This document shows positions 1 to 17,117 of a stretch of DNA of 64,000 nt, piece after piece. The notes beneath the pieces are model-generated. The model saw only the letters and a program-made list of their open reading frames with translations. It was not told the DNA's origin and made no database searches. The DNA comes from an uncultured Anaerolineaceae bacterium (lineage in GTDB: Bacteria; Chloroflexota; Anaerolineae; Anaerolineales; Anaerolineaceae). The first letter of the stretch is position 1; the number at the start of each line of letters is the position of its first letter. The stretch spans positions 1 through 64,000 of the forward strand of contig CAKMKJ010000048.1 in NCBI GenBank assembly GCA_927443345.1. Direction: 5' to 3'. The translations under genes and the position numbers were made by a program.

Positions 1-1
1 T

Positions 2-109
2 ATCATTCGGGAGGCTTTTTCCGTTGATCTAGTCACTGTGGTGGAGGGCGACGCCGCTGTTTCCCAAGAGCTGTTGACTCTACCATTTGACCATATCTCC
101 AGGAGTTAA
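2..109 (+). pseudogene. 3' remnant of a class 3 aldehyde dehydrogenase, broken
   Basis: The open frame entering from the left edge encodes 35 residues. The block IIREAF...[13 protein letters not shown] followed by LPFDHI matches the region just before the catalytic Glu/Cys part of class 3 aldehyde dehydrogenases, which normally continues FDHIFFTGS. Here the match stops after FDHI and the frame ends three codons later, so the NAD-binding loop and the whole catalytic half are missing. I infer a truncated gene at a rearrangement or deletion junction near position 97. The family call rests on motif memory, not on an alignment. Confidence 0.6.
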
Positions 110-211
110 CTTAAACTCTTCATTGATGTATGATGCAGGAATAATTTTCCCACTCTTCAAAACTATATTTGTCTGATCAGCGTCCTTTACCTCTACATTA
201 TCCTTTAACTC
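80..211 (-). other. Possible C-terminal coding remnant, unknown protein
   Basis: On the minus strand 43 sense codons run into a TAG at 80-82, with protein-like composition (it contains SGKIIPASYINEEF and ends PGDMVKW). An in-frame stop lies just upstream and there is no start codon with a ribosome binding site, so it would be a fragment. It overlaps the end of the aldehyde dehydrogenase remnant on the other strand; the two cannot both be intact there, which fits a junction. No family recognised. Confidence 0.22.
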
Positions 212-301
212 TTAAGATACAAGGGTGGGTCGCCAAGAGTGGCAATTTCAACAGACAAATACACACCCGTGGCAGATTATATTTTCCAGGCAGATAGGTC
301 G

Positions 302-335
302 ACCCACCATCTATTCCTTGTGTTTAATGGTGGGT
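302..335. repeat. Inverted repeat ACCCACCAT/ATGGTGGGT
   Basis: Nine-base perfect inverted repeat (302-310 and 327-335) with a 16-base loop. The same heptamer occurs a third time at 224-230, so two alternative hairpins are possible. No U-run follows, so it is not an obvious terminator. It may be part of a decayed mobile element end. Confidence 0.35.
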
Positions 336-444
336 ACAGAGATCGAACCCACTCTACCCCAAATTCATTCCTTGACAAAATAGAACAAAAGAACTAAAAA
401 TATTTTCTCGATCATCTGGTCACTAAAAGGAGAGAAATTGATTC

Positions 445-600
445 GTGCATAAATTCGAATATTCGTTTCCAACCGGAAAATTACGCGTAACTGTTCAACA
501 AATTGCTGAAAAGCTGAAAATTGAGATTTTGGAGGGTCTTCAAGCTAAAAAACATTCGTTTTACCTGTGCCCGAGCGGAGCGAAGGGTATTTGTTTCTGA
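445..600 (+). CDS. Doubtful small ORF, 51 residues
   Basis: GTG-initiated frame preceded by AAGGAG at 427-432, 12 bases upstream, which is rather far. The predicted product begins VHKFEYSFPTGKLRVTV and is lysine-rich; it has no signal peptide and no recognised family. The last codons come from a repeat-like stretch. It could be a remnant of a longer gene or chance. Confidence 0.18.
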   Translation: MHKFEYSFPTGKLRVTVQQIAEKLKIEILEGLQAKKHSFYLCPSGAKGICF

Positions 601-677
601 ATTTTTCTCGATACAAATACGAATCGATTTTCCTGATTACTGAGCCCTGATTACTGATTACTGCCCTTCCACCCCTC

Positions 678-705
678 TTGACAACGAACAAATGTTCTAT
701 ATAAT
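678..705 (+). promoter_or_regulatory. Sigma-70 type promoter of the RecA-like/PolB operon
   Basis: TTGACA at 678-683 and TATAAT at 700-705 with a 16-base spacer, both perfect consensus. The expected start of transcription is about 711-713, the same place as the ATG of the first gene at 712. The mRNA would therefore be leaderless or nearly so; there is no ribosome binding site before that ATG. Confidence 0.8.
685..698. promoter_or_regulatory. LexA/SOS operator (Cheo-box type)
   Basis: CGAACAAATGTTCT contains the palindrome GAAC-N4-GTTC used by LexA of Gram-positive bacteria (consensus CGAAC-N4-GTTCG). It lies wholly between the -35 and -10 boxes, where bound LexA would block RNA polymerase. 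The downstream genes are DNA-repair-like, which supports a working SOS box. LexA of this organism is not in the window, so its exact recognition sequence is not known. Confidence 0.72.
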
Positions 706-711
706 AAAGAT

Positions 712-1305
712 ATGGAACATGACTCACGCTCTGAACTGGCTTTGCCTCTCTCCAACGAACTGCTGGTGGTTTTTGGCCCGCACGCCGGGGGCAGGCGCAT
801 GCTCGATCTCTCCGCCCGGCTGACCCTGCGCGGACCCGTCTACATGCTTGATTGCGGCAACCGCAGTAACATGTACCATGTCGCCAAAGAGCTGCGCACC
901 CTGACCGGCGACCCGGTGGGCATGCTCAGGAATATTCGTCTTTCTCGCGCCTTTACCTGCTATCAGGTGCTTGCATTGCTTGAAAAAATTAGACCTGAAC
1001 CGGGGGTGCCGGTCTTGATCCTCGATCTGCTCAGCACCTTCATGGATGAGAGCGTGCATCTGGATGAAAGCGTCATGCTCTTTGAAAAGACCCTGGCCTG
1101 CATCCAGCGCGCCTGCCATTTGGTGCCGGTGGTGGTCAGCGCCAAACCGCTGCTCTCCATTTCCAGTCCGCGCCTGGTGCTGCTGGGTATGCTCAAACAG
1201 CAGGCCACCCACATCTGGGAGGAACTCTCCCTCAATCCGCCGCCTCCTGTTGAATACCAGCCAGCACTGTTCCCCGGGGCGTTATTGCCCAGAGAGGGCA
1301 GGTAG
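712..1305 (+). CDS. RecA-like fold protein, degenerate ATPase
   Basis: 197 residues. The layout resembles a minimal RecA/RadA core: a beta strand and P-loop-like turn at about residues 19-29 (FGPHAGGRR, where a Walker A would have GKS/GKT), then a strand reading YMLDCGN, and a Walker B-like hydrophobic strand ending in Asp105 (VLILDLL). The Walker A lysine is missing, so ATP hydrolysis is doubtful. It is the first gene of an SOS-box operon, with a probable leaderless start at the promoter, and ends 2 bases before the next gene. By analogy with ImuA/SulA-type RecA relatives it may link the polymerase at 1720 to RecA filaments or damaged DNA; that role is inference. No ImuB or DnaE2 is present here. 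Confidence 0.65.
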   Translation: MEHDSRSELALPLSNELLVVFGPHAGGRRMLDLSARLTLRGPVYMLDCGNRSNMYHVAKELRTLTGDPVGMLRNIRLSRAFTCYQVLALLEKIRPEPGVPVLILDLLSTFMDESVHLDESVMLFEKTLACIQRACHLVPVVVSAKPLLSISSPRLVLLGMLKQQATHIWEELSLNPPPPVEYQPALFPGALLPREGR

Positions 1306-1307
1306 CC

Positions 1308-1718
1308 ATGGGCAGAACCATCCAGTCCGCGACCCAGACCTGGGTTGAAGAAGACGCTGCCCTCCGGCGTTTCGTGCGCGCCCTGCGCAAGAGCGATCAG
1401 GTCTTGATTGATGAATTGATCGCCCTCTCGCATTCTCACGTCGCCGAGGCCTCCTACGCCAGCAACCTTTACCCCATGGATATTTACCTGGTCTCGATGC
1501 TGCTTGAGCTCTACAAAAAGGTCAAACAGCTTGAACTGAAGCTGGAGCAGAACGGCGTGCTGCCGGTCGCGGAGGTCAACCCCTCGCGCGGATTGGTCTC
1601 ACTGCTTGAACTGGTCAAGCAAGAAGAAGACACTCCCGCCGAAGAGCAGGCGTCTGCGCCTCTTGAAGACGATGAAGAGGCTCCCACCGAATACGTTGAC
1701 CTGCAGGAAGGCGCCTGA
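1308..1718 (+). CDS. Small helical protein of the PolB operon, unknown function
   Basis: 136 residues, predicted largely helical, with an acidic C-terminal tail (from about residue 100, many Glu and Asp). It has no signal peptide or membrane segment, and I recognise no family. It lies 2 bases after the RecA-like gene and 1 base before the polymerase start, so it is almost certainly co-translated with them. The acidic tail could be a protein interaction arm or a DNA mimic. A polymerase accessory or bridging subunit is the best guess from context only. Confidence 0.6.
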   Translation: MGRTIQSATQTWVEEDAALRRFVRALRKSDQVLIDELIALSHSHVAEASYASNLYPMDIYLVSMLLELYKKVKQLELKLEQNGVLPVAEVNPSRGLVSLLELVKQEEDTPAEEQASAPLEDDEEAPTEYVDLQEGA

Positions 1719-1719
1719 C

Positions 1720-4032
1720 ATGCCCGCCGCACTCCGCGGCTGGCTGCTCGATCTCTACGAAGACGCCGCAGACGGTCTGAGACTGTGGATCATCTCCGAA
1801 GAGGGTGAGCGCCTTTGCTTGAAGCAATCCATGCCGATCACCTTTTATGCCGCCGGTGAAGCGGAGCAGCTTCGCGGTCTGTGGAAGTTTCTGCGAAAAC
1901 AGCCGGGGGTGCTCTCACTCAGCCGCGAAACCCGGCGCGACGTCTTTCTGCCTGAACCCATTCCGGTGCTGCAGGCGGTGATTGACAATCCCATCCGTCA
2001 GACGCGGCTCTTCAGAGACGTGCAGAAGCAGTTTCCGCATCTCACCTATTACGACTCGGATATCAGCGTCACCACCCGTCACGCGGCCGCCTGGGGCACT
2101 TTTCCCATGGCCTTCTGCGAATTTGAAGCGGATGACGATGCCAACCTTCAGTCGCTACGCGTGCTCAACACCCGCTGGGACCTTTCTCCGGTATTCCCCG
2201 TCTTTCGCACGCTGGCCATTGAGCCGGATTGCGACCCCGTGCGCGGTACGCCCAAAACCATCAAACTGCACTTTCAGCAGCGCCAAAAATCCCTTTGTTT
2301 GGATGACCCCGCCGAATTGATCGCGCGCCTGAACGCCATCCTGGATGAGGTTGACCCCGATTTCATCCTCACTCAGTGGGGTGATAACTGGCTGATACCT
2401 GAATTGTTGAAATTGTCTGAGCAGGCCGGTGAGACGCTGCGCCTCAACCGTGACGCTGACCGCGACGTGCGCTGGCAGAAAGAACTGACTTACTTTTCTT
2501 ACGGGCAGATCATCTACCGCGGCGAAGAGGCGCATCTTTTTGGGCGCTGCCACATTGATCAGCGCAGTGCCATGATGTGGAAGGATTACGGTCTTGATGG
2601 CGTGCTCGAATCGGCGCGCGTCACTGCCCAATCCATTGAACGGGCCGCGCGCGTCTCCCCGGGGTCGGGCATTTCGGCCATGCAGATGCTCACCGCGCTT
2701 GAACATCAGATTCTGGTGCCCTGGCACAAGCAGCAGGTTGAAGCCTTCAAATCCGGCATGGATCTGATCCATCGTGACCGGGGCGGTCTGATCTACCAGC
2801 CCATTGTCGGGCTTCATTCTGATGTGGGTCAAATTGACTTTATCTCGATGTACCCGGCCATCATCATCAAGGGCAACATCTCTCCTGAGGTGCCGCTGCC
2901 CGACGGCATCATCCCCGCCAGCGACGAATTGGGGGTGGTGCCGCTGACCCTGAAGCCTTTATATGAAAAGCGAGTCGCGCTCAAGCTCAACCAGGCTAAT
3001 CTACGCAAGGGTGACCCGATTGCCAAAAGAGATTCGGCGCGCGCCTCGGCCTTGAAATGGCTGCTGGTGGTGTGCTTTGGTTTTCTGGGTTACAAGAACG
3101 CGCGCTTTGGACGCATTGAGGCGCACGAGGCGGTCACCAACGGCGGACGCGAGGTGCTCATCCGCGCCAAGGAGATTGCCGAATCCATGGGCTTTGAGGT
3201 GCTGCACCTCTTTGTGGATGCGCTGTGGCTCAAAAAACCCGGTGCGGTCAATAAGCGCGACTTTCAGGATGTGCTCAACGAGATCACTGAACAGACCGGT
3301 CTGGGCGTCTCATTGGATGGCGTCTACCGTTGGGTGGCCTTTCTGCCGTCGCGGGCCGACAGCCGCATTCCGGTTGCCAACCGCTACTTCGGCGTCTTTC
3401 AAGATGGCTCCTCAAAGGTGCGCGGCATTGAGGTGCGTCGGCGAGATACACCCCCCTGGGTCAGCGAAACTCAGACGCGCATGATGGATGCGCTCGCCAA
3501 GGCTTACACCCTTGAGGCGCTGCCCGAGAGGCTGAATGAGGCTTTTAATCTTTTTCGCAGCGCGCTGAGCGACATGCGTGAGGGCCGGGTGCCGCTGGAT
3601 AAACTGGTGGTGACCTGCCGCATCACCCACGAGCTCGAAGCCTATAAATCTCCCACGCCGGCGGTGCGCGCGGCGAAGCAGCTTCTTCAGCAGACCGGCA
3701 AACGCGTGCGTCCGGGACAGAAGATGCGCTTCATTTACACCCGCGGTGAGCAGGGTGTCAGCGCCTGGGAGGTGACCGAAAAACTGGATCCCTCCCGGCT
3801 GGATAGGGAGAAATACATTGAGTTAATGGCCAGGGCGGCCTCAAGCGTGCTTTATCCCTTTGGCATCGAGAACGAAGAATTGAAACAATGGGCACACTCC
3901 GCTACAATTATGTTGCCACTAAAATTTGAAAGGCAGGATGCCCATGTGCGGCCGATTTGCAATCATGTACGACCCGGAAGAGTTGAAAGACATGCTGGGG
4001 TTGGCAGACGTGCCAGCCGATCTGCAACCTAA
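1720..4032 (+). CDS. Family B DNA polymerase, divergent, probably repair-type
   Basis: 770 residues from the ATG at 1720, chosen because it follows the stop of the previous gene by one base; the frame is open further upstream but overlaps that gene. Polymerase motif A is clear (DFISMYPAI, Asp373). Motif B is present (Lys446 in ALKWLL, then FLGYKNARFG near 455-463). Motif C, normally YxDTDS, reads LFVDALWL at about 498-505, so the second Asp is replaced by Leu. In the exonuclease domain, Exo I (normally DIE) reads AIE at 166-168, while Exo II may keep Asp222 (QWGDNW). Proofreading is therefore probably lost. The last 89 bases overlap the SRAP gene in another frame. I recall a B-family clade linked to RecA-like genes from comparative surveys; this fits but I could not check it. 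Translesion or break repair synthesis is inference. Confidence 0.82.
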   Translation: MPAALRGWLLDLYEDAADGLRLWIISEEGERLCLKQSMPITFYAAGEAEQLRGLWKFLRKQPGVLSLSRETRRDVFLPEPIPVLQAVIDNPIRQTRLFRDVQKQFPHLTYYDSDISVTTRHAAAWGTFPMAFCEFEADDDANLQSLRVLNTRWDLSPVFPVFRTLAIEPDCDPVRGTPKTIKLHFQQRQKSLCLDDPAELIARLNAILDEVDPDFILTQWGDNWLIPELLKLSEQAGETLRLNRDADRDVRWQKELTYFSYGQIIYRGEEAHLFGRCHIDQRSAMMWKDYGLDGVLESARVTAQSIERAARVSPGSGISAMQMLTALEHQILVPWHKQQVEAFKSGMDLIHRDRGGLIYQPIVGLHSDVGQIDFISMYPAIIIKGNISPEVPLPDGIIPASDELGVVPLTLKPLYEKRVALKLNQANLRKGDPIAKRDSARASALKWLLVVCFGFLGYKNARFGRIEAHEAVTNGGREVLIRAKEIAESMGFEVLHLFVDALWLKKPGAVNKRDFQDVLNEITEQTGLGVSLDGVYRWVAFLPSRADSRIPVANRYFGVFQDGSSKVRGIEVRRRDTPPWVSETQTRMMDALAKAYTLEALPERLNEAFNLFRSALSDMREGRVPLDKLVVTCRITHELEAYKSPTPAVRAAKQLLQQTGKRVRPGQKMRFIYTRGEQGVSAWEVTEKLDPSRLDREKYIELMARAASSVLYPFGIENEELKQWAHSATIMLPLKFERQDAHVRPICNHVRPGRVERHAGVGRRASRSAT
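3880..3908 (+). promoter_or_regulatory. Possible internal promoter for the SRAP gene
   Basis: TTGAAA at 3880-3885 and TACAAT at 3903-3908 with a 17-base spacer, inside the 3' end of the polymerase gene and 36 bases before the SRAP start. No SOS box is seen here, so this could give basal SRAP expression independent of LexA. Confidence 0.45.
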
Positions 4033-4579
4033 TCCGAATGTCTCACCGGGGGATGGGGTGGCTGTGGTCACCGACGGCTTGAAACGCGGCGTGGATTTCT
4101 TCAGATGGGGTCTGGTGCCCGGTTGGGCCAAAGATATCTCCATTGGCAACAAACTGATCAATGCCAGAGCCGAGACCTTGGACGAAAAACCCTCATTCCG
4201 CAATGCATTTGCCAGAAGGCGCTGCCTGATCCCCGCCAGCGGATTCTACGAGTGGCGCGCAGAAGGCGGACGCAAGCAGCCTTATCTCTTCCAGCTTGCG
4301 GATCACAAAGTGCTCACTTTTGCCGGGCTTTGGGAGCACTGGGAAGACAATCAGGGCAATGAACTTTTTTCTTGCGTTATCATCACCACGGCGCCCAACA
4401 CCTTGGTGGCCGAGTATCACGATCGTATGCCAGTGATCTTTGATGCCGAGAATTGCTGGTCATGGCTCGAAGACAAACCGGTCAAAGAGTTGCAACCCCT
4501 GTTGCAGGCTTATCCGTCAGAGAAAATGGCAGAGCCAATACAAATGAATCCGCTGGATTTGCGCAGAATTGATAGGTAG
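3944..4579 (+). CDS. SRAP-family abasic-site crosslinking protein (HMCES/YedK type)
   Basis: 211 residues when started at ATG 3944, the start that places the catalytic cysteine at position 2 (MCGRF). The other family residues are visible: Asn in INARAET, Glu in GFYEWR and His in HDRMPVI. Family members form a thiazolidine link between Cys2 and abasic sites in single-stranded DNA, shielding them from error-prone bypass and breakage. The gene overlaps the polymerase by 89 bases in another frame and may also have its own promoter at 3880. Its place in an SOS-box operon with a PolB suggests a role in tolerating abasic sites during damage-induced synthesis. Confidence 0.92.
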   Translation: MCGRFAIMYDPEELKDMLGLADVPADLQPNPNVSPGDGVAVVTDGLKRGVDFFRWGLVPGWAKDISIGNKLINARAETLDEKPSFRNAFARRRCLIPASGFYEWRAEGGRKQPYLFQLADHKVLTFAGLWEHWEDNQGNELFSCVIITTAPNTLVAEYHDRMPVIFDAENCWSWLEDKPVKELQPLLQAYPSEKMAEPIQMNPLDLRRIDR

Positions 4580-4630
4580 AAAACCCCGGTTATCAGTATA
4601 ATAATCCAATCATTATGTATGGAGCCTAAA

Positions 4631-5485
4631 ATGTTGGATAAATCAAAAATTGCAATCATTGGTTATGGTGTCATGGGGAAGGCAATTGTCTCCAGTTTGA
4701 TCAGCGACGGAAAAGTAAAGCCTGAGAATCTGATTGTGGTGGAACCAACGTCTGATCGTTTGGAGGTTTTAAAACAAGAGTTTGGCATCACAGGCTATGC
4801 GGATAGCTCAGATGTGATCGGCCAGGCTGATATTGTCATTGTAGCTGTCAAGCCTCAAGGGTTGGGCCAGCTTTCAAAATCAGTAAAGGGCAACATTAAG
4901 CCAGATGCTTTGGTTATATCCATTATGGCTGGTGTATCTCTGGCGACGTTGATAGAGAAATTAGGGGTGGAGCAGATTATCCGCGCCATGCCCAATACAC
5001 CCGCTCAAGTGGGCATGGGCATTACCGTTTGGGTTAAGACGCCGCAGGTCAGTGACGCAAAGAAAGAAATGGCCTCTGAGATCATTAAGACCCTCGGGGA
5101 TGAGGTCTTTGTAGATGATGAAAGTTATCTGGATATGGCGACCGCATTATCTGGTTCAGGTCCGGCATATGTGTTTCTCTTTATGGAATCAATGATTGAT
5201 GCAGGCGTGCATATGGGCTTTCCACGGCGTATAGCCGAAAAACTGGTGACGCAAACGGTTCGCGGCAGCGCGGAATTTTTCATGCAGAATCATGAACATC
5301 CTGCCAGGCTGCGCAATGATGTGACTTCTCCCGGCGGCACATCCGCTGAAGCACTGTATTATCTTGAAAAGGCAGGGTTCAGAACAGCCATCTCGCGCGC
5401 CATTTGGGCTGCCTATGAGCGCTCCACCGAATTAGGCAAAGGTAAAAGCAAACTGGTTGTTGACGACAAAAGCAAACCAGAATAA
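4631..5485 (+). CDS. proC: Pyrroline-5-carboxylate reductase
   Basis: 284 residues. ATG 4631 is preferred over 4619 because GGAG at 4621-4624 is then correctly spaced. It reduces 1-pyrroline-5-carboxylate to L-proline with NAD(P)H in the cytoplasm. The N-terminal Rossmann fold reads IAIIGYGVMGKAI. The family signature lies near the C-terminus (SGSGPAYVFLFMESM, then DVTSPGGTSAEAL). Normal length. It is followed after 18 bases by glpD, with which it is probably co-transcribed although the pathways are unrelated. Confidence 0.95.
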   Translation: MLDKSKIAIIGYGVMGKAIVSSLISDGKVKPENLIVVEPTSDRLEVLKQEFGITGYADSSDVIGQADIVIVAVKPQGLGQLSKSVKGNIKPDALVISIMAGVSLATLIEKLGVEQIIRAMPNTPAQVGMGITVWVKTPQVSDAKKEMASEIIKTLGDEVFVDDESYLDMATALSGSGPAYVFLFMESMIDAGVHMGFPRRIAEKLVTQTVRGSAEFFMQNHEHPARLRNDVTSPGGTSAEALYYLEKAGFRTAISRAIWAAYERSTELGKGKSKLVVDDKSKPE

Positions 5486-5503
5486 ATTTCAACGAGGACG
5501 GAT

Positions 5504-7168
5504 ATGGATCGAAAATCAATCATTGAAGCTATAAAGAAGAATCCAGAAATTGACGTTCTGGTCGTTGGCGCTGGAATTAATGGCGCTGGTACTTTTCGCG
5601 ATTTGGCCCTTAACGGCGTGAATGTGCTCCTGATCGACAGGGGTGATTTTTGTTCAGGCACCTCTGCCACTTCATCTCATATGGCACACGGGGGCATCCG
5701 CTATTTAGAAAACGGCGAATTTCGTCTGGTAGAAGAAGCGGTTGAAGAACGTAACCGCATGATTGAGAATGCACCTCATCTGGTGCAGCCTTTGCCAACC
5801 GTGATCCCGATCTTTAAGGTTTGGTCTGGATTGTTGAATGCACCTTTGAAATTCATCAACCTTTTAGATCGACCTTCAGAACGCGGTGCACTGGTAATCA
5901 AAATCGGATTAATCTTCTATGATTCATTTACGCGCAAACAGAAAACCGTACCTCGGCACAAATTCTTTGGTAAAACAGAAGCTTTGGCCAGATACCCTTT
6001 CCTGAATGAAAATATCAAATACGCTGCCCTTTATTACGACGGACACCTTTTATCACCAGAACGCATGACCGTTGAAATAATCCTGGATGGCGAGGATGAA
6101 GGCGATCACGCCAAGGCATTAAACTATGCCTCCTTCAACAAGATTGAAAACGGACAAGTTGTGATTAAGGATGAGGAGACTGGAGACTTAGTCTCGGTCA
6201 AACCAAAGTTCATCATCAATGCAGCCGGTCCGTGGATTGATTATGTCAATCAAAATGCCGGTGTTGAGACTAAATACATAGGTGGCACCAAGGGTTCACA
6301 CCTGGTTATCAAGAATGATGAACTGCGCAAAGCCGTTGGAGAATCTGAATTCTTCTTCGAAAACAAAGACGGACGCATCGTCTTGTGTCTGCCTTTCTAT
6401 GACAAGGTCATCGTTGGCACTTCCGATTTACCCATTGGCAACCCTGATGATGCCCGATGTACACCCGAAGAAGAAGAATATTTCATTGAATTGGTAGATC
6501 GCGTGTTTCCGACGATCAAAATTACCCGCGACCAAATTGTTTTTCGCTTTTCTGGTGTCAGACCGCTGGAATATCAGAAGGCAAAAACCACCGGACAGAT
6601 CACCCGCGACCACAGCGTCAAAGAAGATGTCATGCAGGGTCTTCCAGTGTTAAGTCTGGTCGGCGGCAAATGGACCAGTTTCAGAGCATTCTCTGAGCAG
6701 GTTGCCACAAAAGTGATGACTGGCTTGAGTAAAACCAAAACAATGAGCACAGAAAGCTTGCCGATTCGCGGCGGTATTAATTTGCCATTATCGAAAGTCC
6801 AAAAAGAAACTTACATCAAGAACCTTGTTTCAAAATATGGATTTGCTGAAGAATATGCCAGTGAATTACTAACCCGTTATGGCACCTATGCGGAAAAGAT
6901 TGCAGACCATATTGAGAAGAACAAGGGCAAGATGCTGAAATCTATCCCAAATTGGAATTCTGGAGAATTGACCTACATTCTACAGAACGAAAAACCATTA
7001 CACTTGGATGACTTGTTTGTGCGCAGGTCTACCATCATGTGGCTCGGTAACGCAAATGATGAAGTTATTGAAGAATTTGCTGACATCATGGCGGATGAAT
7101 ACAAATGGTCCGCGGCAAAGAAAAAAGACGAAATAAGTAAGGTGAAAAACATAATTGCGAATAGTTAG
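5504..7168 (+). CDS. glpD: FAD-dependent glycerol-3-phosphate dehydrogenase
   Basis: 554 residues. It oxidises glycerol 3-phosphate to dihydroxyacetone phosphate and passes electrons to the quinone pool at the membrane. The N-terminus has the FAD-binding dinucleotide fold (VLVVGAGINGAGTFRDLAL) followed by SGTSATSSHMAHGGIRYLE, typical of GlpD/GlpA; the C-terminal DAO cap domain is complete. GAGG precedes the start. No glpK or glpF is nearby. A strong hairpin terminator follows. Confidence 0.94.
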   Translation: MDRKSIIEAIKKNPEIDVLVVGAGINGAGTFRDLALNGVNVLLIDRGDFCSGTSATSSHMAHGGIRYLENGEFRLVEEAVEERNRMIENAPHLVQPLPTVIPIFKVWSGLLNAPLKFINLLDRPSERGALVIKIGLIFYDSFTRKQKTVPRHKFFGKTEALARYPFLNENIKYAALYYDGHLLSPERMTVEIILDGEDEGDHAKALNYASFNKIENGQVVIKDEETGDLVSVKPKFIINAAGPWIDYVNQNAGVETKYIGGTKGSHLVIKNDELRKAVGESEFFFENKDGRIVLCLPFYDKVIVGTSDLPIGNPDDARCTPEEEEYFIELVDRVFPTIKITRDQIVFRFSGVRPLEYQKAKTTGQITRDHSVKEDVMQGLPVLSLVGGKWTSFRAFSEQVATKVMTGLSKTKTMSTESLPIRGGINLPLSKVQKETYIKNLVSKYGFAEEYASELLTRYGTYAEKIADHIEKNKGKMLKSIPNWNSGELTYILQNEKPLHLDDLFVRRSTIMWLGNANDEVIEEFADIMADEYKWSAAKKKDEISKVKNIIANS

Positions 7169-7175
7169 ACAAAAA

Positions 7176-7205
7176 ACAGCTCTCCAGCGATGGAGAGTTG
7201 TTTTT
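7176..7205. terminator. Bidirectional intrinsic terminator between glpD and the protease gene
   Basis: Eleven-base stem (ACAGCTCTCCA with TGGAGAGTTGT, one G-U pair), four-base loop GCGA, then TTTTT on the plus strand and an A-run on the left that serves as a U-run for the convergent gene. Confidence 0.8.
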
Positions 7206-7213
7206 ACTAATGA

Positions 7214-8317
7214 TTAGTCTTCAGATTCTTTCCAAATTGGATCACGAAGTATCAGCAATGTGATTAGAAAGAGTACGATGATTGATGGCCAGCCAATGCC
7301 AAAAGAGGTCGCTGTATCTATCGGTGTGTAGATAACTCCCATAAAATAACTGATGGATTGATTAAATAGCGCATGTAAGAAGGCAGCCAGCCATACGGCT
7401 TTGGTTTTTAGCACTGCATAACCTAAAATGAAAGCCAGACCGATGCAGTAAAGAACGAACAGGAAGGATCCCAAAATAGGCTGTGAAGGGTAGTTATATC
7501 CCATCCAAATGATCGGCATATGCCAGACACCCCAAATGATGCCGACCAGCAAAACTGCCTTAACCTTGCCAATTTTTATCAAAGCAGACTGCAGGTAACC
7601 TCGCCAGCCATATTCTTCACCAAAGGTGACAACCAATCCGAGCAAGGGTCCAAGAATCAGTGTTTGAGCAGCGACAATAATCATAAAAACAGAATAACTC
7701 ATCCCGGATATGGCAGCTTGAGCTTGCAACATGGCCATATCAACAGGAGTGCCCATTTTGAAAAACCAGGATAAAACAGTTTGAAGACCAGCAAAAGCTA
7801 AAATACCGAGACCAAAAAGGAGCCACGAAATAGCCTTACCACCAGCCATATTGACGCTTGAGAAAGACTCTTTGCCACCAACAATGCGCAAAACTATCAG
7901 GAGGATTAATCCAAGAATCCCTGGAAGGAGAATGAGTGAATTGAGCGACAAAAGCAGAGAAGGATTGATTGATGTGGTAATGAAAATTGCCATGTACATC
8001 AATGTAAAAAACAAGAAATACCAGATAAACCATCTGGAAGTTGTATGATTAGTCTTGCAATATATTGAGCTGTCTTTGAAAAAGAACATACCCAGTACAA
8101 TGGCTGAAAAGGCCGGCAGCAGCATTTGCAGTTGAAGACCGATTCCTACAGAGGGATTGTTTAAACCACCATTGAGGTATATAGCAAGATCTAGTGACCA
8201 TGAAAGTACAAAGGTGAGGACAAGAAAAGTGGCGATTTGCTTCCAATTTACTTTGGAGCGTATTGTGGTTGATGAATCTGTTTCATCCTCATTAGCAACA
8301 AGAGAAAATGATTCCAT
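7214..8317 (-). CDS. CPBP family intramembrane metalloprotease (CAAX protease-like)
   Basis: 367 residues with about eight hydrophobic segments. Abi/CPBP motifs are visible: EEYGWRG at about residues 231-238 (EExxxR), HMPIIW, and a C-terminal HALFNQ. These supply the metal-binding Glu/His set of type II CAAX-like membrane proteases. AAGGA precedes the start. Bacterial members act in prenyl-protein-like processing, bacteriocin self-immunity or membrane stress; which one applies here cannot be told. It is a single gene converging on glpD and divergent from the glycosyltransferase at 8577. Confidence 0.82.
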   Translation of the reverse strand: MESFSLVANEDETDSSTTIRSKVNWKQIATFLVLTFVLSWSLDLAIYLNGGLNNPSVGIGLQLQMLLPAFSAIVLGMFFFKDSSIYCKTNHTTSRWFIWYFLFFTLMYMAIFITTSINPSLLLSLNSLILLPGILGLILLIVLRIVGGKESFSSVNMAGGKAISWLLFGLGILAFAGLQTVLSWFFKMGTPVDMAMLQAQAAISGMSYSVFMIIVAAQTLILGPLLGLVVTFGEEYGWRGYLQSALIKIGKVKAVLLVGIIWGVWHMPIIWMGYNYPSQPILGSFLFVLYCIGLAFILGYAVLKTKAVWLAAFLHALFNQSISYFMGVIYTPIDTATSFGIGWPSIIVLFLITLLILRDPIWKESED

Positions 8318-8576
8318 ATTTTCCTTCTTAGAATAATTTGCTAATTAATTTGTAGCCAACTTATTATAATCGGCAAGATTTAGAAAATATTTACATTTTT
8401 TATATCCTTTTACTGGTTCTTTTTATAGCAATTTTATATTTTTGATTAATTATGTGGCTATACTTCTTAATTAGTGAAACAATGTGATTAGCGAAGACTA
8501 ATAACATTTTTGGTTTTAATTCGGATATTTGTAATTTTTAATGCATGACTGGGATTAAGAAAAATTGAGGATAGAA

Positions 8577-10538
8577 ATGAGTTTAAAAAATCATTTATCA
8601 ACAGATTTGGATCTTTCTGATAAAGATACACAAAAAAAAGCAAGAGATGCCTATGATAAAGGGGATTATATTGGGGCATACAATCTATATCTTTCAATAT
8701 ACCAGAATGAAAACAATCCCCGGGGATTGCAGCTCAGTATTGCCTTATGCCTGTTAAAAATGAATAAGAGGCGTCAAGCAAGATTATTTGCATTTAAAGA
8801 GTTATTGGATTATCCAGACAACGAAACTGCTACCAAATTAATTATTGACCAAAGCTCAAAAGTTGTTGGAAAAACAATTTATCGAAGATTCGACAATTCA
8901 GTTCGTCCAGAAAAATTTCCTGATATTTCACTGGTACTAATCGTTAAAAATGAAGAGAAAGACCTGCCAAGATGTTTGGAGTCTTTTAAGGATATAGTAA
9001 AAGAAATTGTAGTAGTCGATACCGGCTCAACTGATAGAACAGTCGAAATTGCAAAAAGCTATGGTGCAAGAGTTGAGTTTTTTGAATGGACGAATGATTT
9101 TGCTGAAGCAAGAAATGTAAGTTTAAGTTTTGCGAGTTGTGAGTGGATTCTTCGTACAGATGCTGATGAATATATTGAAGAACCCGAAAAAGCAAAATTG
9201 CTTCATTGTGTTAATAGTGGCGTGGCAGATATATATTTATGCCCAACAGTCAGCAAACTAAAGGTAGGTGAGCAAACAGTCGAAAACGTCCGGTTAATTA
9301 AAAATCATTTAGGTGTTGTCTATCATTACCCAATCCATGAGACAGTGGCGCTTAGTGCTGCAAAATTGGGGTTGCTTCAATGTTTGACAAATATCAAATT
9401 TTTACATAGCGGATACGAATTTGTTGAAGAAGGTTCTTCTGAAAGAAAAACCGAACGCAATATTAGTGTGTGTTCACAATATTTAGATAAACATCCTGAG
9501 GATTTTTATGTTCGCCTTGTTCGAGGTTTATTGCTTCTTAATACTCCAAGAAAAGCAGATGCGATAAGTGATTTAGAACGGGGTGTTAAAGACATACCAG
9601 ATGATGCTTCGCCGGTTAAATATATGGGATTGGCATATATTGGCTTATGTCAGCAATACGCGTTTGAAAATAGAGAAATTGATTTAATTAATATACTTTT
9701 AGATGCTCAGGTAGATTTCAATGTTTATTCTTGTATGATGCAGTTTATTGGTCAAGTTTATTGTTTTACTAGAGGAGACTGGAAGCGTGCAAACAAAATA
9801 TTCGAGTGGACGCTAAAAAGATATACAACGAAGCTAACCTTTTCAGACGTACTAATTGCGGAAAAATTCAACGAAGTTGAATGTTCAAAGCTCATGGCAG
9901 AAACGTGTGTGTTATTAAAAGACTATGAAAAAGCACGTAAGTATTATCTTCAAGCCAAGAAATTAAAGAAAAAAATAAGTGAACAATCTGAAAATCCAAA
10001 TAATGAAAAACATTATGAAGATGTTGACTCGTTTTCGGCTGAGCAACTGCGCATCTTGGCAAAAACACCTAAAGAAAATTTACAATATTTTGAAACTTAC
10101 TCTAACATTCTAAGGGCTGCTTCAAAAAGCGAACTTACTGCTCAAGATTATTTGGATTTGGCAAATTGTCAAATTCAAATTAACAACTTAAAATTTGCCC
10201 AAGTATTAATTGATGCATCTCGCTTGATAAATCCAAATATGGCAATGGGCAATAATCTTGAATCGTTAATTGCTTTAAAACAAAAAGATACTCAAAAAGG
10301 ATTGGAAAAGGCAATTGAAGCCTTTATTCAAGACCCTGGAAATGAGAAATACCAACAAAATGTGGAGACAGTTGCAAGTATATTAAAAATGTCTCCAGTA
10401 GAGGCTCTAAGAAAAACTGGGCTCGAGTGGATAACTTCTGGAAAAGTTCAGAATGGAATTTATACTTTAATGATGTATTCAAAATTCCAACCGGATGATC
10501 AAGAGATAAAAAGCTTTTTAGCAAAGTATCTAAAATAA
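8577..10538 (+). CDS. TPR-containing family 2 glycosyltransferase
   Basis: 653 residues from ATG 8577, preferred over TTG 8565 because GAGG at 8567-8570 serves it. An N-terminal TPR-like helical part (about residues 15-95) precedes a GT-A domain with ISLVLIVKNEE, VDTGSTDRT and the metal-binding RTDADEY. From about residue 270 on, the C-terminal half is TPR-like helical repeats. No signal peptide, so cytoplasmic. GT2-TPR proteins of this type (SunS relatives) often glycosylate peptides or flagellin. It heads the sugar locus that ends just before fliC, which makes flagellin a plausible acceptor. Confidence 0.78.
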   Translation: MSLKNHLSTDLDLSDKDTQKKARDAYDKGDYIGAYNLYLSIYQNENNPRGLQLSIALCLLKMNKRRQARLFAFKELLDYPDNETATKLIIDQSSKVVGKTIYRRFDNSVRPEKFPDISLVLIVKNEEKDLPRCLESFKDIVKEIVVVDTGSTDRTVEIAKSYGARVEFFEWTNDFAEARNVSLSFASCEWILRTDADEYIEEPEKAKLLHCVNSGVADIYLCPTVSKLKVGEQTVENVRLIKNHLGVVYHYPIHETVALSAAKLGLLQCLTNIKFLHSGYEFVEEGSSERKTERNISVCSQYLDKHPEDFYVRLVRGLLLLNTPRKADAISDLERGVKDIPDDASPVKYMGLAYIGLCQQYAFENREIDLINILLDAQVDFNVYSCMMQFIGQVYCFTRGDWKRANKIFEWTLKRYTTKLTFSDVLIAEKFNEVECSKLMAETCVLLKDYEKARKYYLQAKKLKKKISEQSENPNNEKHYEDVDSFSAEQLRILAKTPKENLQYFETYSNILRAASKSELTAQDYLDLANCQIQINNLKFAQVLIDASRLINPNMAMGNNLESLIALKQKDTQKGLEKAIEAFIQDPGNEKYQQNVETVASILKMSPVEALRKTGLEWITSGKVQNGIYTLMMYSKFQPDDQEIKSFLAKYLK

Positions 10539-10616
10539 ATTATTGAGTGTCAAAATCAAACAAACATATAGAGTTAATCTTAAATTATTTTTTTGCGCTT
10601 ATTGTGAGGATAATAA

Positions 10617-12287
10617 ATGGCCAAACCAAGTAACCCATCAGTGAAAAACCATGCTACAAGAAATGCCGCTGGACATAGTGCAAAGAACCATGAGGAAGTT
10701 AATCAAATACTAACTTCAAGTGTTAAAGATTGTAATGATGAATTAGAGCCAAAGGAGGATAAGCAATGGGTATTTATAACTGAAAATACTGATAATAAAA
10801 AATCAATTCCTGCTGGAAATGGCTTGAATGAGACGAGAAGAAATCGAATCGTAGCATCACTTGGAACAAATTCTGAAATGGTTAGTATTGTTGTTCAATC
10901 GTACAACCGGTTGGATAAAACACAAAAATGTGTTAACAACATTTTAAAATATACATCAGATATTAATTATGAACTAATCTTGATAGATAACGGCTCAACG
11001 GATGGAACTTTGCAATATTTCAAGTCAGTTGACCATCCCTTAAAAACGATCATGCACGTAACGAAAAATATTAGTAGTTATGTTCCATTAATTTATCAAT
11101 TACGTGGAATGTATATAGTTAATGTTACTAATGATACATATGTCACTAAGGACTGGTTGAAAAATCTTCTTATCTGCATGAAAAGCGATGACTCAATTGG
11201 CATGGCTGTACCAGCAGTATCTAACGGTAGTAATATGCAAGGCGCCGATATTACATTCAATTCGTTGGAAGAGATGGAAGAAAAGGCAGCCAGGCATAAT
11301 ATTTCCAATCCTTGTTTGTGGCATGAAAGAATGCGTCTGGTTTATCAACTGGTAATTTATAGAAGAGAAATATTTGACATTGTAGGTATCATTGATTATG
11401 GATTTTTCCATGATTTTGTAGAAGATGATATATCTTTTAGAATTCGTAGAGCAGGTTATAAAACTGTTTTGTGCAAAGATACTTTTGTGCACCATGATCA
11501 TGTTCGCAAAAATATGACCCCTGACGAAACGGCTCATTTTAATAATTCAATTGAAGCTGGTAAACGCGATTTTAAGAATAAATATTATGGTATAGATGCA
11601 TGGGATGATGTAAATAACTATGAACCTAATATAATGGCAATGGTTAATCCTAAAGAGCATGATAGTGATAAGGAGATCAATATATTAGGTGTTGATGTTT
11701 TATGCGGAAGCCCCATTCTTGAATTAAAAAATAAATTAAGAGAAAATTATATATTTAATCCGTATCTATCTGGATTTTCTACAGATCCAAAATATTGGCT
11801 TGATCTCAAAACCATTTGTAACAAAGAAGTAGTTGTCGATAGAATTGAACAGTTTAATCAATACTTTTCCAATGAATCTTTTGATTATATTGTTTTGGGA
11901 AAACCCATAAATAATTATTCAAATTCTTTTCAATTATTAAATTATTTGATCAAAAGACTAAAGAGCAAAGGCCATCTATATTTAAAACTATATAACTCTT
12001 TTGATTTTACTAATTTAATTAAATCCCTTGGAGGTAATTTCAATTCAGGAAGAATAAATGAAGTGGGTTTGTATTATTTCAATTACAGTATTGATGATCT
12101 ATTGAGTGAGCTTGATCGACTTGGTTTCAGATCTAATAAAACAATTGCTGAAAATTGGCCAATGGATGAAAATTTTCATTCTTTTATCAAAAAGATAGTT
12201 GACACTTCAAGTATTAACCCTAATAAAAGTATTACATTAGCAAGATCAACTGTGAAGAATTATTGTTTGGATATTATCGCGAAGTAA
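10617..12287 (+). CDS. Family 2 glycosyltransferase with extra C-terminal domain
   Basis: 556 residues. After a polar, low-complexity N-terminus of about 85 residues there is a GT-A fold (VSIVVQSYNRLDK, IDNGSTDGT). The usual DxD position reads NDT in VTNDTYV, and EDDISFRIRRAGYK follows, typical of GT2 enzymes. From about residue 350 a second domain looks like a Rossmann-type methyltransferase remnant (ILGVDVLCGSP, FDYIVLGKP, LKSKGHLYLKL) without a clear SAM motif. TGAGGA precedes the start. AT-rich like the rest of the sugar locus. Confidence 0.75.
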   Translation: MAKPSNPSVKNHATRNAAGHSAKNHEEVNQILTSSVKDCNDELEPKEDKQWVFITENTDNKKSIPAGNGLNETRRNRIVASLGTNSEMVSIVVQSYNRLDKTQKCVNNILKYTSDINYELILIDNGSTDGTLQYFKSVDHPLKTIMHVTKNISSYVPLIYQLRGMYIVNVTNDTYVTKDWLKNLLICMKSDDSIGMAVPAVSNGSNMQGADITFNSLEEMEEKAARHNISNPCLWHERMRLVYQLVIYRREIFDIVGIIDYGFFHDFVEDDISFRIRRAGYKTVLCKDTFVHHDHVRKNMTPDETAHFNNSIEAGKRDFKNKYYGIDAWDDVNNYEPNIMAMVNPKEHDSDKEINILGVDVLCGSPILELKNKLRENYIFNPYLSGFSTDPKYWLDLKTICNKEVVVDRIEQFNQYFSNESFDYIVLGKPINNYSNSFQLLNYLIKRLKSKGHLYLKLYNSFDFTNLIKSLGGNFNSGRINEVGLYYFNYSIDDLLSELDRLGFRSNKTIAENWPMDENFHSFIKKIVDTSSINPNKSITLARSTVKNYCLDIIAK

Positions 12288-12298
12288 AAAGAGGACAA

Positions 12299-13075
12299 AT
12301 GAAGGTAGTAATATTGGCAGGTGGATTGGGAACTCGGATTTCTGAAGAAAGCCATTTAACACCTAAACCGATGATAGAAATTGGTGGAAAACCAATTCTT
12401 TGGCATATTATGAAGATTTATTCACAATATGGATATAACGATTTCATCATTTGTGCCGGATACAAGCAAAATATTATTAAACAGTATTTCGCAAATTATT
12501 TCCTTTTTACTTCTGACATTACATTTAATATGGCTGACAATTCAGTGGTTGTTCACGATAAACATGCAGAATCGTGGAAAGTAACTATAGTTGATACTGG
12601 ATTAAATACCATGACTGGGGGAAGAATAAAGAGGATTCAACCTTTTATAGGTCAAGAACCTTTTATGATGACATATGGAGATGCAGTTTCAGATATTGAT
12701 ATTAGTAAAGTTGTTGATTTTCATAGGTCACATGGCAAAACGGTTACTTTAACTGCTGTTCAGCCTGGAGGTCGTTTTGGATTGCTTGAAATAGATGAAT
12801 CTAACACTATTCATCAGTTCAAAGAAAAAAATAAAGAGGATGGCGGTTGGATAAATGCAGGGTTTATGGTTATCCAACCAGAGGTTTTTGATTATATTGA
12901 AGGTGACTACACTACTTTTGAACAAGAACCCCTTGCAAAAATTGCGAATGATGAGAACTTAAAAGCCTATTATCATTCTGGATTCTGGCAGTGTATGGAT
13001 ACATTACGTGAAAAAGAAAGGTTGGAAGAATTACTTGCTACCGATACAGCACCTTGGAAGGTCTGGGCAGATTGA
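12299..13075 (+). CDS. rfbF: Glucose-1-phosphate cytidylyltransferase
   Basis: 258 residues from ATG 12299; the frame is open upstream but would overlap the previous gene, and AGAGGA lies at the right distance. It makes CDP-glucose from CTP and glucose 1-phosphate. The nucleotidyltransferase signature is intact (VVILAGGLGTRISEE, then KPMIEIGGKPILWHI). The acidic metal site is in TYGDAVSDID. The stop codon overlaps the start of rfbG (ATGA). Confidence 0.93.
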   Translation: MKVVILAGGLGTRISEESHLTPKPMIEIGGKPILWHIMKIYSQYGYNDFIICAGYKQNIIKQYFANYFLFTSDITFNMADNSVVVHDKHAESWKVTIVDTGLNTMTGGRIKRIQPFIGQEPFMMTYGDAVSDIDISKVVDFHRSHGKTVTLTAVQPGGRFGLLEIDESNTIHQFKEKNKEDGGWINAGFMVIQPEVFDYIEGDYTTFEQEPLAKIANDENLKAYYHSGFWQCMDTLREKERLEELLATDTAPWKVWAD

Positions 13076-14139
13076 TGAACACCCTGGATTTTTACAAAGG
13101 AAAAAAAGTCTTTATTTCTGGTCACACTGGATTTAAAGGAAGTTGGTTATGTAGAACGCTCTTAAAAGCAGGTGCGATAATTACTGGATTTTCACTTGAG
13201 CCTCCAACTGATCCAAACCTTTATTACCTGGCTGGGATTCAGGACAGAATTAAAAGCACAATAGGTGATATAAGGGATTTTGAATTCCTCAAATCGTCCT
13301 TTGCATCAGCCCAACCAGAAATTGTTATTCATTTGGCAGCACAACCCATTGTTCGAGACAGCTACATATATCCTCGCGTAACTTATGAAACAAATGTAAT
13401 GGGGACAGTAAATATTCTTGAGTGTATTCGCGAAAATAGCTGTGTAAAAAGCTTCCTCAACGTCACTACTGATAAGGTTTATAAGAATAATGAATGGGAG
13501 TGGGGCTATCGAGAGAACGAACCATTGGAAGGATTTGATCCATATTCAAACAGCAAAAGTTGTTCAGAACTTGTGACCCATAGTTATAACAACAGTTTTT
13601 TTAATGACACGTTGGCAGCAATTTCTACTGCACGGGCAGGCAATGTAATCGGTGGGGGAGATTTTGCAAAGGATCGATTAATTCCTGATTGTGTTCGTGC
13701 GTTGAAAGATAATGAAGTAGTTATTGTGAGAAATCCAGCTTCAATTCGTCCTTATCAGCATGTTCTTGAGCCAATCTTTGCTTATCTATATATTTGTCAG
13801 AAACAATATTTGGATAAACGGTTGTCAGGTTATTACAATGTTGGACCAGATGAAGTGGATTGTGTCACTTCTGGTGATCTGGTAAGTATGTTTTGTTCGG
13901 CTTGGTCAGAAAAAGCCAAATGGAATAATGTTTCAGATAAGAATGCACCACACGAAGCTGGTTATTTAAAGCTTGATTGTTCCAAAATAAAAAATTCTTT
14001 GGGGTGGTACCCTCGATGGCATATTGAAGAAGCAATCGAGAAAACATGCACATGGTCGAAAGCCTGGCTTGCAAAAGAAGATATTCCTTCTCTTATGGAT
14101 CAGCAAATTGAAGAATATCTTGGCGAAAGAAAGCAATGA
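13075..14139 (+). CDS. rfbG: CDP-glucose 4,6-dehydratase
   Basis: 354 residues from ATG 13075, overlapping the rfbF stop by one base. Extended short-chain dehydrogenase: the NAD motif GHTGFKGSWL is characteristic of RfbG rather than RmlB, and the YxxxK pair lies in DPYSNSKSCSE. It converts CDP-glucose to CDP-4-keto-6-deoxyglucose, the branch point for CDP-linked deoxysugars. It overlaps the next gene by 4 bases. Confidence 0.92.
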   Translation: MNTLDFYKGKKVFISGHTGFKGSWLCRTLLKAGAIITGFSLEPPTDPNLYYLAGIQDRIKSTIGDIRDFEFLKSSFASAQPEIVIHLAAQPIVRDSYIYPRVTYETNVMGTVNILECIRENSCVKSFLNVTTDKVYKNNEWEWGYRENEPLEGFDPYSNSKSCSELVTHSYNNSFFNDTLAAISTARAGNVIGGGDFAKDRLIPDCVRALKDNEVVIVRNPASIRPYQHVLEPIFAYLYICQKQYLDKRLSGYYNVGPDEVDCVTSGDLVSMFCSAWSEKAKWNNVSDKNAPHEAGYLKLDCSKIKNSLGWYPRWHIEEAIEKTCTWSKAWLAKEDIPSLMDQQIEEYLGERKQ

Positions 14140-15065
14140 AAAAAGCGATTGTAACAGGCGCAAATGGATTTATTGGAAGAGCAGTTGTTTCTGAGCTCAT
14201 AAACCAAAATGTTCAAGTTTGGGCACTTACTCGACATGGAGATGAAAACAATTTTCTTCAAAGTGACAAGATAAAAGGTATTCAATTTGACCTTTCAAAT
14301 ATCACTCTCATAAAAAAAAGTATTCCATTCGATGATTATGATGTTTTTTACCATTTAGCATGGGATGGAACTTCTGGTTCCGCACGAAATGATATTGATT
14401 TGCAATTGAAGAATGCTCAATGGACAGTAGATGCATTGCGCGTAGCAAAAGAATTGGGGTGCAAGCGATTTGTTGGAGTGGGAAGTATCATGGAAGATGA
14501 AACAATAGCTGCTGCATTTTCACAAGGAAATAAACCTGGGATGAGCTACATCTACGGTGGAGGAAAATTAATTGCCCATGTAATGTGTAAGTCTGTAGCT
14601 GCGGAAATCGACTTTGATTTGATTTGGTGTAAGATAACGAATGCCTACGGTAAAGGTGAAACAAGTCCACGGCTAATCAATTCAACCATTCGGAAGATTA
14701 TTGCGGGTGAGACACCTCGATTTACTTCAGGTACACAGAATTATGATTTTATTTATATTGACGACGTAGCAAGAGCTTTTCATTTAATTGGCGAACTTGG
14801 AAAGCCATTTCATGAGTATCTCATTGGTAGTTCAAAGTCTGGTCCATTGCGTGAATTCTTGCTTCAAATGAAAGCCGCAATTGCTCCAAATGTGGACTTC
14901 ATTTTTGGCGATGTACCATTTTCAGGAATCAACCTGGATATTTCAAAATTTGATTGTTCAAAAACAGAAATTGACACTGGTTTTAAAGCAGAAGTCTCTT
15001 TTTCTGAGGGTGTAAAATTAACAAAAGATTGGATTGAAAGCAATAATGGAGGCAGTACAATATGA
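14136..15065 (+). CDS. NAD(P)-dependent sugar epimerase/reductase
   Basis: 309 residues, extended SDR family. The Rossmann motif is VTGANGFIGRAV; the catalytic Tyr/Lys pair is in SYIYGGGKL (Tyr-x3-Lys), preceded by GVGSIMEDE. Sitting between rfbG and an RfbC-like gene, it probably reduces or epimerises C4 of the CDP-4-keto-6-deoxyhexose to give the finished CDP-6-deoxysugar. The exact sugar cannot be read from the sequence. It overlaps both neighbours by 4 bases, so translation is coupled. Confidence 0.8.
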   Translation: MKKAIVTGANGFIGRAVVSELINQNVQVWALTRHGDENNFLQSDKIKGIQFDLSNITLIKKSIPFDDYDVFYHLAWDGTSGSARNDIDLQLKNAQWTVDALRVAKELGCKRFVGVGSIMEDETIAAAFSQGNKPGMSYIYGGGKLIAHVMCKSVAAEIDFDLIWCKITNAYGKGETSPRLINSTIRKIIAGETPRFTSGTQNYDFIYIDDVARAFHLIGELGKPFHEYLIGSSKSGPLREFLLQMKAAIAPNVDFIFGDVPFSGINLDISKFDCSKTEIDTGFKAEVSFSEGVKLTKDWIESNNGGSTI

Positions 15066-15631
15066 TCAAAAAGTTTGATTTTACTTTGACTGAAATTTCA
15101 GGGTTATATAAAATACAACCTTTTTGTGCATATGATGAGCGGGGTTATTTTCTGAAGGATTATTCGAAAGAGATATTTAAAGAAAATGGCATCGAATATG
15201 ATTTGATGGAAGTATTTTATACGAGCTCGATAAAAGGGGTAGTTAGAGCATTACACTTTCAACGGATTATGCAGCAACCAAAGCTTGTTCGCTGTGTTTT
15301 TGGGAAAGTTTTTGACGTAGTCGTAGATTTGCGCAAAGATAGTCCTACGTATTCAAAATGGATTAGCTTTGAATTGAGTGAAAGTAATCAGTACGAGTTG
15401 TTGATACCATCAGGATGTGCACATGGGTATCTGGTTTTAGAAAAATCGATCGTTTCTTACAAATGTTGTGAGAAGTTTATAAGTGAGTATGATGATGGAA
15501 TTTTTTGGAATGACCCGGAAATAGGAATTAATTGGCCGCTTGAAAGCGTTGATAACAAAGTAACATTATCTGAAAAAGATAAGCGGTTAATGAGTTTTAG
15601 CCAGTTTAAGGAAATAATCGGTGGATTCTAA
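15062..15631 (+). CDS. RfbC-like NDP-4-keto-6-deoxyhexose 3- or 3,5-epimerase
   Basis: 189 residues, a cupin of the RmlC family. The catalytic histidine is in VRALHFQ; the family strands VFGKVFDVVVDLRKDSPTY and IPSGCAHGYLVLE are clear. Classical RmlC acts on dTDP-sugars, but with CDP-sugar genes on its left it more likely acts on the CDP intermediate, as in ascarylose or 6-deoxyaltrose routes. No rfbH-type 3-dehydrase is present, so a 3-deoxy sugar is not expected from this locus alone. Confidence 0.85.
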   Translation: MIKKFDFTLTEISGLYKIQPFCAYDERGYFLKDYSKEIFKENGIEYDLMEVFYTSSIKGVVRALHFQRIMQQPKLVRCVFGKVFDVVVDLRKDSPTYSKWISFELSESNQYELLIPSGCAHGYLVLEKSIVSYKCCEKFISEYDDGIFWNDPEIGINWPLESVDNKVTLSEKDKRLMSFSQFKEIIGGF

Positions 15632-16796: not shown

Positions 16797-16845
16797 AAGA
16801 TTCGAGTAGAATCATAAATTAGATCAAATAAACAAGCAGCATTTT

Positions 16846-17041: not shown

Positions 17042-17117
17042 TAAGAGTATAAATTTATGGATTAGCTAAGGAGATCGCTTATCGAGGAATTTACGAAATT
17101 TCTAAAAAAGCAATAAA

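Follow-up and report, generated by a model that had tools for sequence, protein, structure and literature searches.

The closest described counterpart of the locus analyzed here is a bacterial operon encoding an inactive RadA/Rad51 homologue (iRadA), a small partner protein (PPB2) and a family B DNA polymerase (PolB2). Models of a heteropentameric mutasome and a transfer from archaea have been put forward for this operon, and lexA and SRAP genes were reported to be enriched near it (Timinskas 2025, PMC11791011). The operon (arCOG07300) and its link to lexA had been noted in 2014 (Makarova 2014, PMC4104785), and PMC12926913 mentions it as a proposed mutasome. In bacteria, the PolB2 mutasome is a computational proposal. 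The archaeal PolB2 enzyme Dpo2 has been described as a damage-inducible mutagenic polymerase (PMC7390963) that elongates mispaired ends and, past abasic sites, carries on after the Y-family polymerase Dpo4 (PMC8764526, PMC8721586). In this study, we analyzed a 64,000-nucleotide stretch from an uncultured Anaerolineaceae bacterium (contig CAKMKJ010000048.1, positions 1 to 64,000; hereafter the window), whose source assembly comprises 3.67 Mb, and found a four-gene operon of iRadA, PPB2, PolB2 and SRAP. The locus very likely encodes a bacterial PolB2 mutasome that is controlled by LexA and acts in extension during lesion bypass.

The core of this hypothesis, the PolB2 mutasome, is already in print. 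Among the seven papers listed by our literature search on iRadA, PPB2, PolB2 and Dpo2, the terms iRadA or PPB2 appeared only in PMC11791011, and a search for PolB2 together with SRAP returned only PMC11791011 and PMC12926913. The words 'SOS box', 'promoter', 'LuxR' and 'Chloroflex' are absent from the main text of PMC11791011. Measured against the publications consulted, the promoter evidence, the additional gene at the operon head, the split operon and the history of SRAP are additions to the mutasome account.

Gene content and protein hallmarks

The four genes lie on the forward strand behind one promoter. Intergenic gaps amount to 2 nt (iRadA/PPB2) and 1 nt (PPB2/PolB2), and PolB2 and SRAP overlap by 89 nt because the PolB2 frame is open up to position 4032. 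For comparison we used 99 loci, namely the window and 98 others chosen for near-complete PolB2 matches; most partial or contig-end PolB2 matches were excluded. The features of the window are as follows:

678..705, forward strand: sigma-70 promoter TTGACA-16-TATAAT (-35 at 678-683, -10 at 700-705; consensus match 12/12)
686..697, forward strand: predicted LexA (SOS) box GAACAAATGTTC within the promoter spacer, kept at operon heads of relatives
712..1305, forward strand: iRadA, inactive RadA/Rad51 homologue, 197 aa (profile and fold matches)
775..798, forward strand: degenerate Walker A of iRadA, GPHAGGRR, without the P-loop Lys (GxxxxGK[ST] absent in 99/99 iRadA)
1258..1272, forward strand: C-terminal QPALF of iRadA, predicted to bind the beta clamp (QxxL[FLW] pattern)
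1308..1718, forward strand: PPB2, 136 aa, a small helical partner protein ending in an acidic tail (MGRT start, alignment, family searches)
1308..1319, forward strand: MGRT N-terminal arm motif of PPB2 ([MVL]GRT in 95/99 loci)
1720..4032, forward strand: PolB2, 770 aa, a family B DNA polymerase whose exonuclease has decayed (PF00136, 1.2e-24)
2836..2838, forward strand: motif A Asp373 of PolB2, retained (D in 99/99)
3211..3219, forward strand: motif C of PolB2, FVD, residues 498-500, a DxD that has lost its first Asp (aligns with the DTD of archaeal PolB)
3944..4579, forward strand: SRAP (YedK/HMCES family), 211 aa (PF02586, 2.7e-68; PDB sequence match to YedK/HMCES)

A preliminary description of this locus had recognized four tightly packed genes behind one promoter with a LexA box, among them a RecA-fold protein lacking the Walker A lysine, a divergent PolB and an SRAP of the HMCES family, and all of these assignments were borne out. 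The iRadA profile search led to RadA (E 1.5e-7), and Foldseek matched its predicted model (pLDDT 91) to RadA/Rad51 (E 8.9e-8). As in the published family, the window iRadA consists of a RadA core that lacks both the ATPase site and the N-terminal domain. The clamp-binding pattern occurred within the last 30 residues of 80 of the 99 iRadA proteins (two of these open reading frames (ORFs) were short), versus 5 of 516 internal 30-residue segments. In PolB2 such a motif was found in 4 of 99 loci, all of which also have one in iRadA. This agrees with the published hallmark that the motif is located in iRadA or PolB2 but rarely in both.

Neither Pfam nor NCBIfam returned a match for PPB2 at E values up to 1, and its MGRT start is the same as that of published PPB2. 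The acidic tail, another claim of the preliminary description, is real in the window but is found in only part of the relatives according to the alignment. In the window this C-terminal extension is long (1572-1715), and its end overlaps a Shine-Dalgarno-like stretch ahead of PolB2. Extra PPB2-like genes, matching only from about profile position 17 and lacking the MGRT arm, were observed in several genomes of the order, including G481 (L259), in line with what has been published for PPB2 duplications.

PolB2 matched archaeal PolB both by sequence (E 3.6e-72) and in a fold search (E 9.5e-39); its residues 731-770, mostly within the SRAP overlap, were modelled at pLDDT below 50. In the profile alignment, the D-x-E of the exonuclease site is changed to E-x-D and another exonuclease Asp to Leu, which we take to be the Exo I and Exo II motifs, respectively. 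Judged on these two motifs, PolB2 shows the published hallmark of a replaced first DxD Asp together with a lost exonuclease site. The first position of motif C is Tyr, Phe or Ile in 79, 18 and 2 loci (Asp in 0/99). A Pol II-type SOS polymerase, which proofreads and acts as a single subunit, was ruled out by the loss of the Exo II Asp and the presence of operon partners. The loss of the DxD Asp in all 99 loci and the altered exonuclease motifs might also indicate a purely structural PolB2 without catalytic activity, as was first proposed for the family (PMC4104785). We consider this very unlikely: the motif A Asp, the motif B Lys and the last motif C Asp are kept in 99/99, and an archaeal PolB2 reported to be a robust polymerase has lost the same Asp (IID; PMC11791011). 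A D(K/R) loop motif is present in the window (D353-R354), and its Asp is found in 98/99 loci; the second residue is K or R in only 49/99, which counts against the mutasome reading.

In all 99 loci, iRadA and PPB2 precede PolB2 and share its strand (in L156 both matches fall in one odd ORF). With a single-sequence query (E 1e-20), PolB2 was detected in 16 of 301 genomes of the phylum and 111 of 147 genomes of the family, and with a profile (E 1e-15) in 132 of 251 genomes of the order. The preliminary description had expected the genes to co-occur, and among the 251 order genomes 120 contained both PPB2 and PolB2, 9 PPB2 alone, 12 PolB2 alone and 110 neither. Several of the 12 PolB2-alone cases were fragments or contig ends. 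The 9 PPB2-alone cases comprised 6 weaker matches (E 1e-7 to 1e-20, several without the arm) and 3 genomes of a genus with a split operon. At the family level, 107 of 111 PolB2 genomes had PPB2, and none had PPB2 alone.

Taken feature by feature, the window shares with the published PolB2 mutasome its gene set and order, the MGRT arm, the lost DxD Asp, the lost P-loop and the iRadA clamp motif, as well as SRAP and lexA as enriched neighbours. It differs in that a LexA box lies within its promoter, whose transcript is probably leaderless, in that SRAP overlaps PolB2 and in that a DinB-like gene of the same genome has the same promoter type; in some relatives a LuxR-type gene heads the operon, or the operon is split. 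With archaeal Dpo2 of Sulfolobus islandicus it has in common the PolB2 family, linked iRadA and PPB2 genes and damage-linked expression, which is predicted for the window. Archaeal regulation contrasts with LexA here, and the clamp motif of the window is of the bacterial QxxLF type. The layout also resembles Pol V and ImuABC as an SOS-inducible multi-subunit translesion set with a RecA-fold partner, whereas the polymerase family is another one and the genome's own PF00817 gene is DinB-like and lies on another contig. The preliminary description was right in seeing an ImuABC-like arrangement, here with an SOS-type promoter. An ImuA-ImuB-DnaE2 cassette itself was rejected, since the polymerase belongs to family B and the operon has no PF00817 gene (no genome-wide DnaE2 search was made).

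The LexA box and promoter across relatives

The -10 element of the operon promoter is only 6 nt away from the iRadA ATG (712), and therefore the transcript is probably leaderless, starting on or next to this codon. GAACN4GTTC is presumably the Bacillus-type LexA box. The window box GAACAAATGTTC differs by one letter from the recA box of the same genome. The recA, lexA and DinB-like genes of this genome each have a one-mismatch box between -35 and -10. In the DinB-like gene the promoter reads TTGACA-ATTA-GAACTGATGTGC-TAAAAT, and this gene, the sole PF00817 match in the genome (on another contig, C52; L236:725-1909), is probably leaderless with a GTG start. A predicted LexA box overlapping the promoter was found to be common to the operon, lexA and recA.

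The promoter layout of the window recurs in relatives. Box statistics were calculated over 94 operon heads, with five of the 99 loci (L074, L076, L112, L121 and L142) left out for having less than 60 bp upstream. When the search was confined to iRadA (from 250 bp ahead of the gene to 180 bp into it), only 32 of 94 heads had an exact box, because a LuxR-type head gene shifts the promoter in 35 loci. This gene of about 134 codons (e.g., L255:1861-2262; its GerE domain was scanned in this one member) precedes iRadA in 35/99 loci and is absent from the window; the box at its own head is exact in 21/35 and within one mismatch in 32/35. At the true operon head, exact boxes were present in 48 of 94 (0.27% in shuffles) and boxes with at most one mismatch in 81 of 94 (13.8% in shuffles). 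TTG[AT] and TAnnnT together with a box of at most two mismatches occurred in 77/94 heads, versus 1.7% of shuffles and 0/40 SRAP upstream regions sampled elsewhere. A regular expression that required a start codon shortly after the -10, besides the -35, the box and the -10 itself, matched directly before iRadA in 41/94. Conserved order with upstream SOS boxes, which the preliminary description had named as support, was thus observed.

In one genus the operon is split, and the box is found on both parts. On one 4.5-Mb contig of G577 (L252, L253), a regulator-like gene, iRadA and PPB2 lie far from PolB2, and an exact LexA box precedes each half. G609 (L255, L256) has the same split, again with exact boxes, its halves being on separate contigs.

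Several observations weigh against LexA control. First, 0.84 exact GAACN4GTTC sites are expected by chance in the window, so that a lone palindrome is not significant, and the whole genome contains 56 exact sites compared with 72 for a control pattern. The case for the window box rests on its position and conservation, not on the palindrome alone. Second, each of the recA, lexA and dinB boxes departs from the pattern at one position, and 10-14% of shuffled regions contain a match this loose. Third, even allowing one mismatch, a box is missing from 13 of the 94 heads, including that of L062, which is 79% identical to the window; three of them (L067, L068 and L070) have a two-mismatch box in the right promoter. 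Fourth, some of the 81 matches are chance matches off the promoter (L066, L069), and the shuffle controls ignore shared ancestry.

In L062, the sequence upstream of iRadA (about 1600-1746) differs and contains no such promoter or box, perhaps owing to an insertion. An exact-box genome scan was rejected as a regulon finder on the basis of the control counts given above. Among 15 other exact sites of the own genome, 11 fall within ORFs longer than 120 codons (some perhaps spurious), and none clearly heads a repair gene, as judged from the first residues of the neighbouring ORFs.

Placement and history of SRAP

SRAP of the window starts with MCGRF, and its FYEW and HDRMP segments align to the PDB relative, so that the N-terminal Cys2, the Glu and the His are all in place. 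Cys2 is presumably the functional residue of the family. Glu105 and His160 have been described as its catalytic residues. By Pfam and PDB sequence the protein is a member of the YedK/HMCES family; it differs from YedK and HMCES in ending a polymerase operon in this clade.

Only the window and six close relatives show the overlap with the end of PolB2; five of the six share the genus of the window, and the other belongs to genus g190. The overlap measured 77-95 nt in six of these seven loci, those in which the start could be placed. Even within the genus it is not general, with PolB2 and SRAP on different contigs in G421 and G429. Elsewhere, SRAP precedes PolB2 by 0.9-1.7 kb with the same orientation (G399, G402, G415 and G425), or lies between PPB2 and PolB2 on the opposite strand (G406) or, in another family, just downstream of PolB2 (G481 and, as a partial match, G544). 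The SRAP right after PolB2 in G481 is the second one of that genome. SRAP was within 10 kb of PolB2 in 22 of 30 same-contig pairs from a chosen list, and was absent from the flanks (up to 4.5 kb, some shorter) of 89/99 loci. It was present in 130/147 family genomes (63/64 good ones), including 26 of 36 without PolB2, and was missing from 21 of 80 order genomes with PolB2. Thus, the association of SRAP with PolB2 is recurrent but sporadic and not a core feature.

These data bear on the proposal that SRAP is dedicated to the polymerase complex as a partner and holds abasic sites during the action of PolB2. The overlap in seven loci, the adjacency in varied positions, the proximity in the chosen pairs and the published enrichment of SRAP near PolB2 (PMC11791011) are in its favor. 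We nevertheless regard it as unlikely, given the empty flanks of most loci, the exceptions within the genus and the PolB2 genomes lacking SRAP. Moreover, the 40 SRAP upstream regions contained 0 exact boxes and 2 one-mismatch boxes; five of these regions came from genomes in which SRAP adjoins the operon (G399, G402, G406, G415 and G425) and two from genomes without PolB2 (G329 and G407). The idea that SRAP is normally SOS-controlled was rejected on the basis of the 0/40 exact boxes. Further points are the third-position GC content of SRAP, which differs from that of the other operon genes (see below), and the reported inhibition of mutagenic translesion synthesis by HMCES (PMC9436759). The view in the preliminary description that SRAP protects abasic sites while the polymerase acts is therefore not the default reading; its PolB-based tolerance cassette was supported, although already published, whereas SRAP as a standing member of it was not.

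The alternative is that SRAP is a passenger, which gained SOS control by landing at the operon end and is tied to the polymerase by shared induction only. In the SRAP tree, the seven downstream SRAPs and five SRAPs of genus g4 form a supported set apart from the common type, and the g4 genes are not at their PolB2 loci (of 20 SRAP stretches, G416 gave no usable ORF, and L234, whose SRAP equals that of L064, was left out). Furthermore, GC content at third codon positions (GC3) is 0.42 in the non-overlapping part of SRAP, compared with 0.70-0.72 in iRadA, PPB2 and PolB2 and 0.46-0.49 in the next two genes. This difference from the rest of the operon suggests a later addition, and SRAP probably joined the operon later. 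On the other hand, adjacency recurs in other arrangements and the 77-95 nt overlap is kept; the recurrence argues for some benefit. On balance, the passenger explanation has somewhat less than an even chance. The SRAP link in this clade is lineage-specific, and its meaning is uncertain.

With regard to the surroundings, the operon is followed by a proC-like gene and then a glycerol-3-phosphate oxidase-like gene; in eight relatives compared, proC was near the operon in 3 and the oxidase-like gene in 6. No tRNA was found in window positions 1-20000 and no Rfam match in 1-12000. GC content is 58% at 712-4032 (GC3 0.70-0.72) and 39% at 4620-64000, and operon GC exceeded flank GC in 93 of 97 loci, by 7.8 points on average.

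A proposed model of SOS-induced lesion bypass

The gene content, order, motifs, promoter layout, conservation and co-occurrence described above were observed directly. From archaeal work and the published models we infer a complex, an extender role, induction by damage and prior action of DinB. Upon DNA damage, active RecA would lead to cleavage of LexA and release of the promoter at 678-705, and a probably leaderless mRNA would encode iRadA, PPB2, PolB2 and, in this lineage, SRAP. iRadA, having no ATPase site, would dock on PolB2 and tether it to the beta clamp through its C-terminal QPALF. A PPB2 trimer would insert its MGRT arm into the cleft between iRadA, PolB2 and DNA, as in the published models of a predicted heteropentamer, and PolB2, without proofreading, would extend distorted primer ends beyond the lesion.

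In the genome of the window, the DinB-like polymerase probably acts before PolB2. Given that one type of promoter precedes both the DinB-like gene and the PolB2 operon, an SOS-induced inserter followed by an extender is the simplest reading. Two results argue against such an order everywhere: PolB2 is present in 14 of 20 listed family genomes without a PF00817 match (7 more such genomes are unlisted), and in genus g2 the two are mutually exclusive, with PolB2 only in G104, G307, G310 and G312 and PF00817 only in G306, G308, G309 and G311. A general replacement of Y-family polymerases by PolB2 was rejected, as PF00817 matches occur in 120 and PolB2 in 111 of the 147 family genomes.

SRAP, coupled by the overlap, would be made together with PolB2 and might cross-link abasic sites in single-stranded DNA. 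Since HMCES is reported to inhibit mutagenic translesion synthesis, we conjecture that SRAP more likely represents an alternative fate of abasic sites than a subunit or helper of the polymerase. A bolder version, in which SRAP is a translation-coupled fourth mutasome element that decides between cross-link and bypass at abasic sites, within a LexA module that includes DinB, receives in other Anaerolineae a second input through the LuxR-type gene and in some genera has PolB2 replacing Y-family polymerases, appears doubtful.

Our promoter evidence supports a place of the PolB2 mutasome in the SOS regulon, and in one genome the presumed inserter (DinB-like) and the presumed extender (PolB2) share a promoter type. 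The bypass model for bacteria becomes testable.

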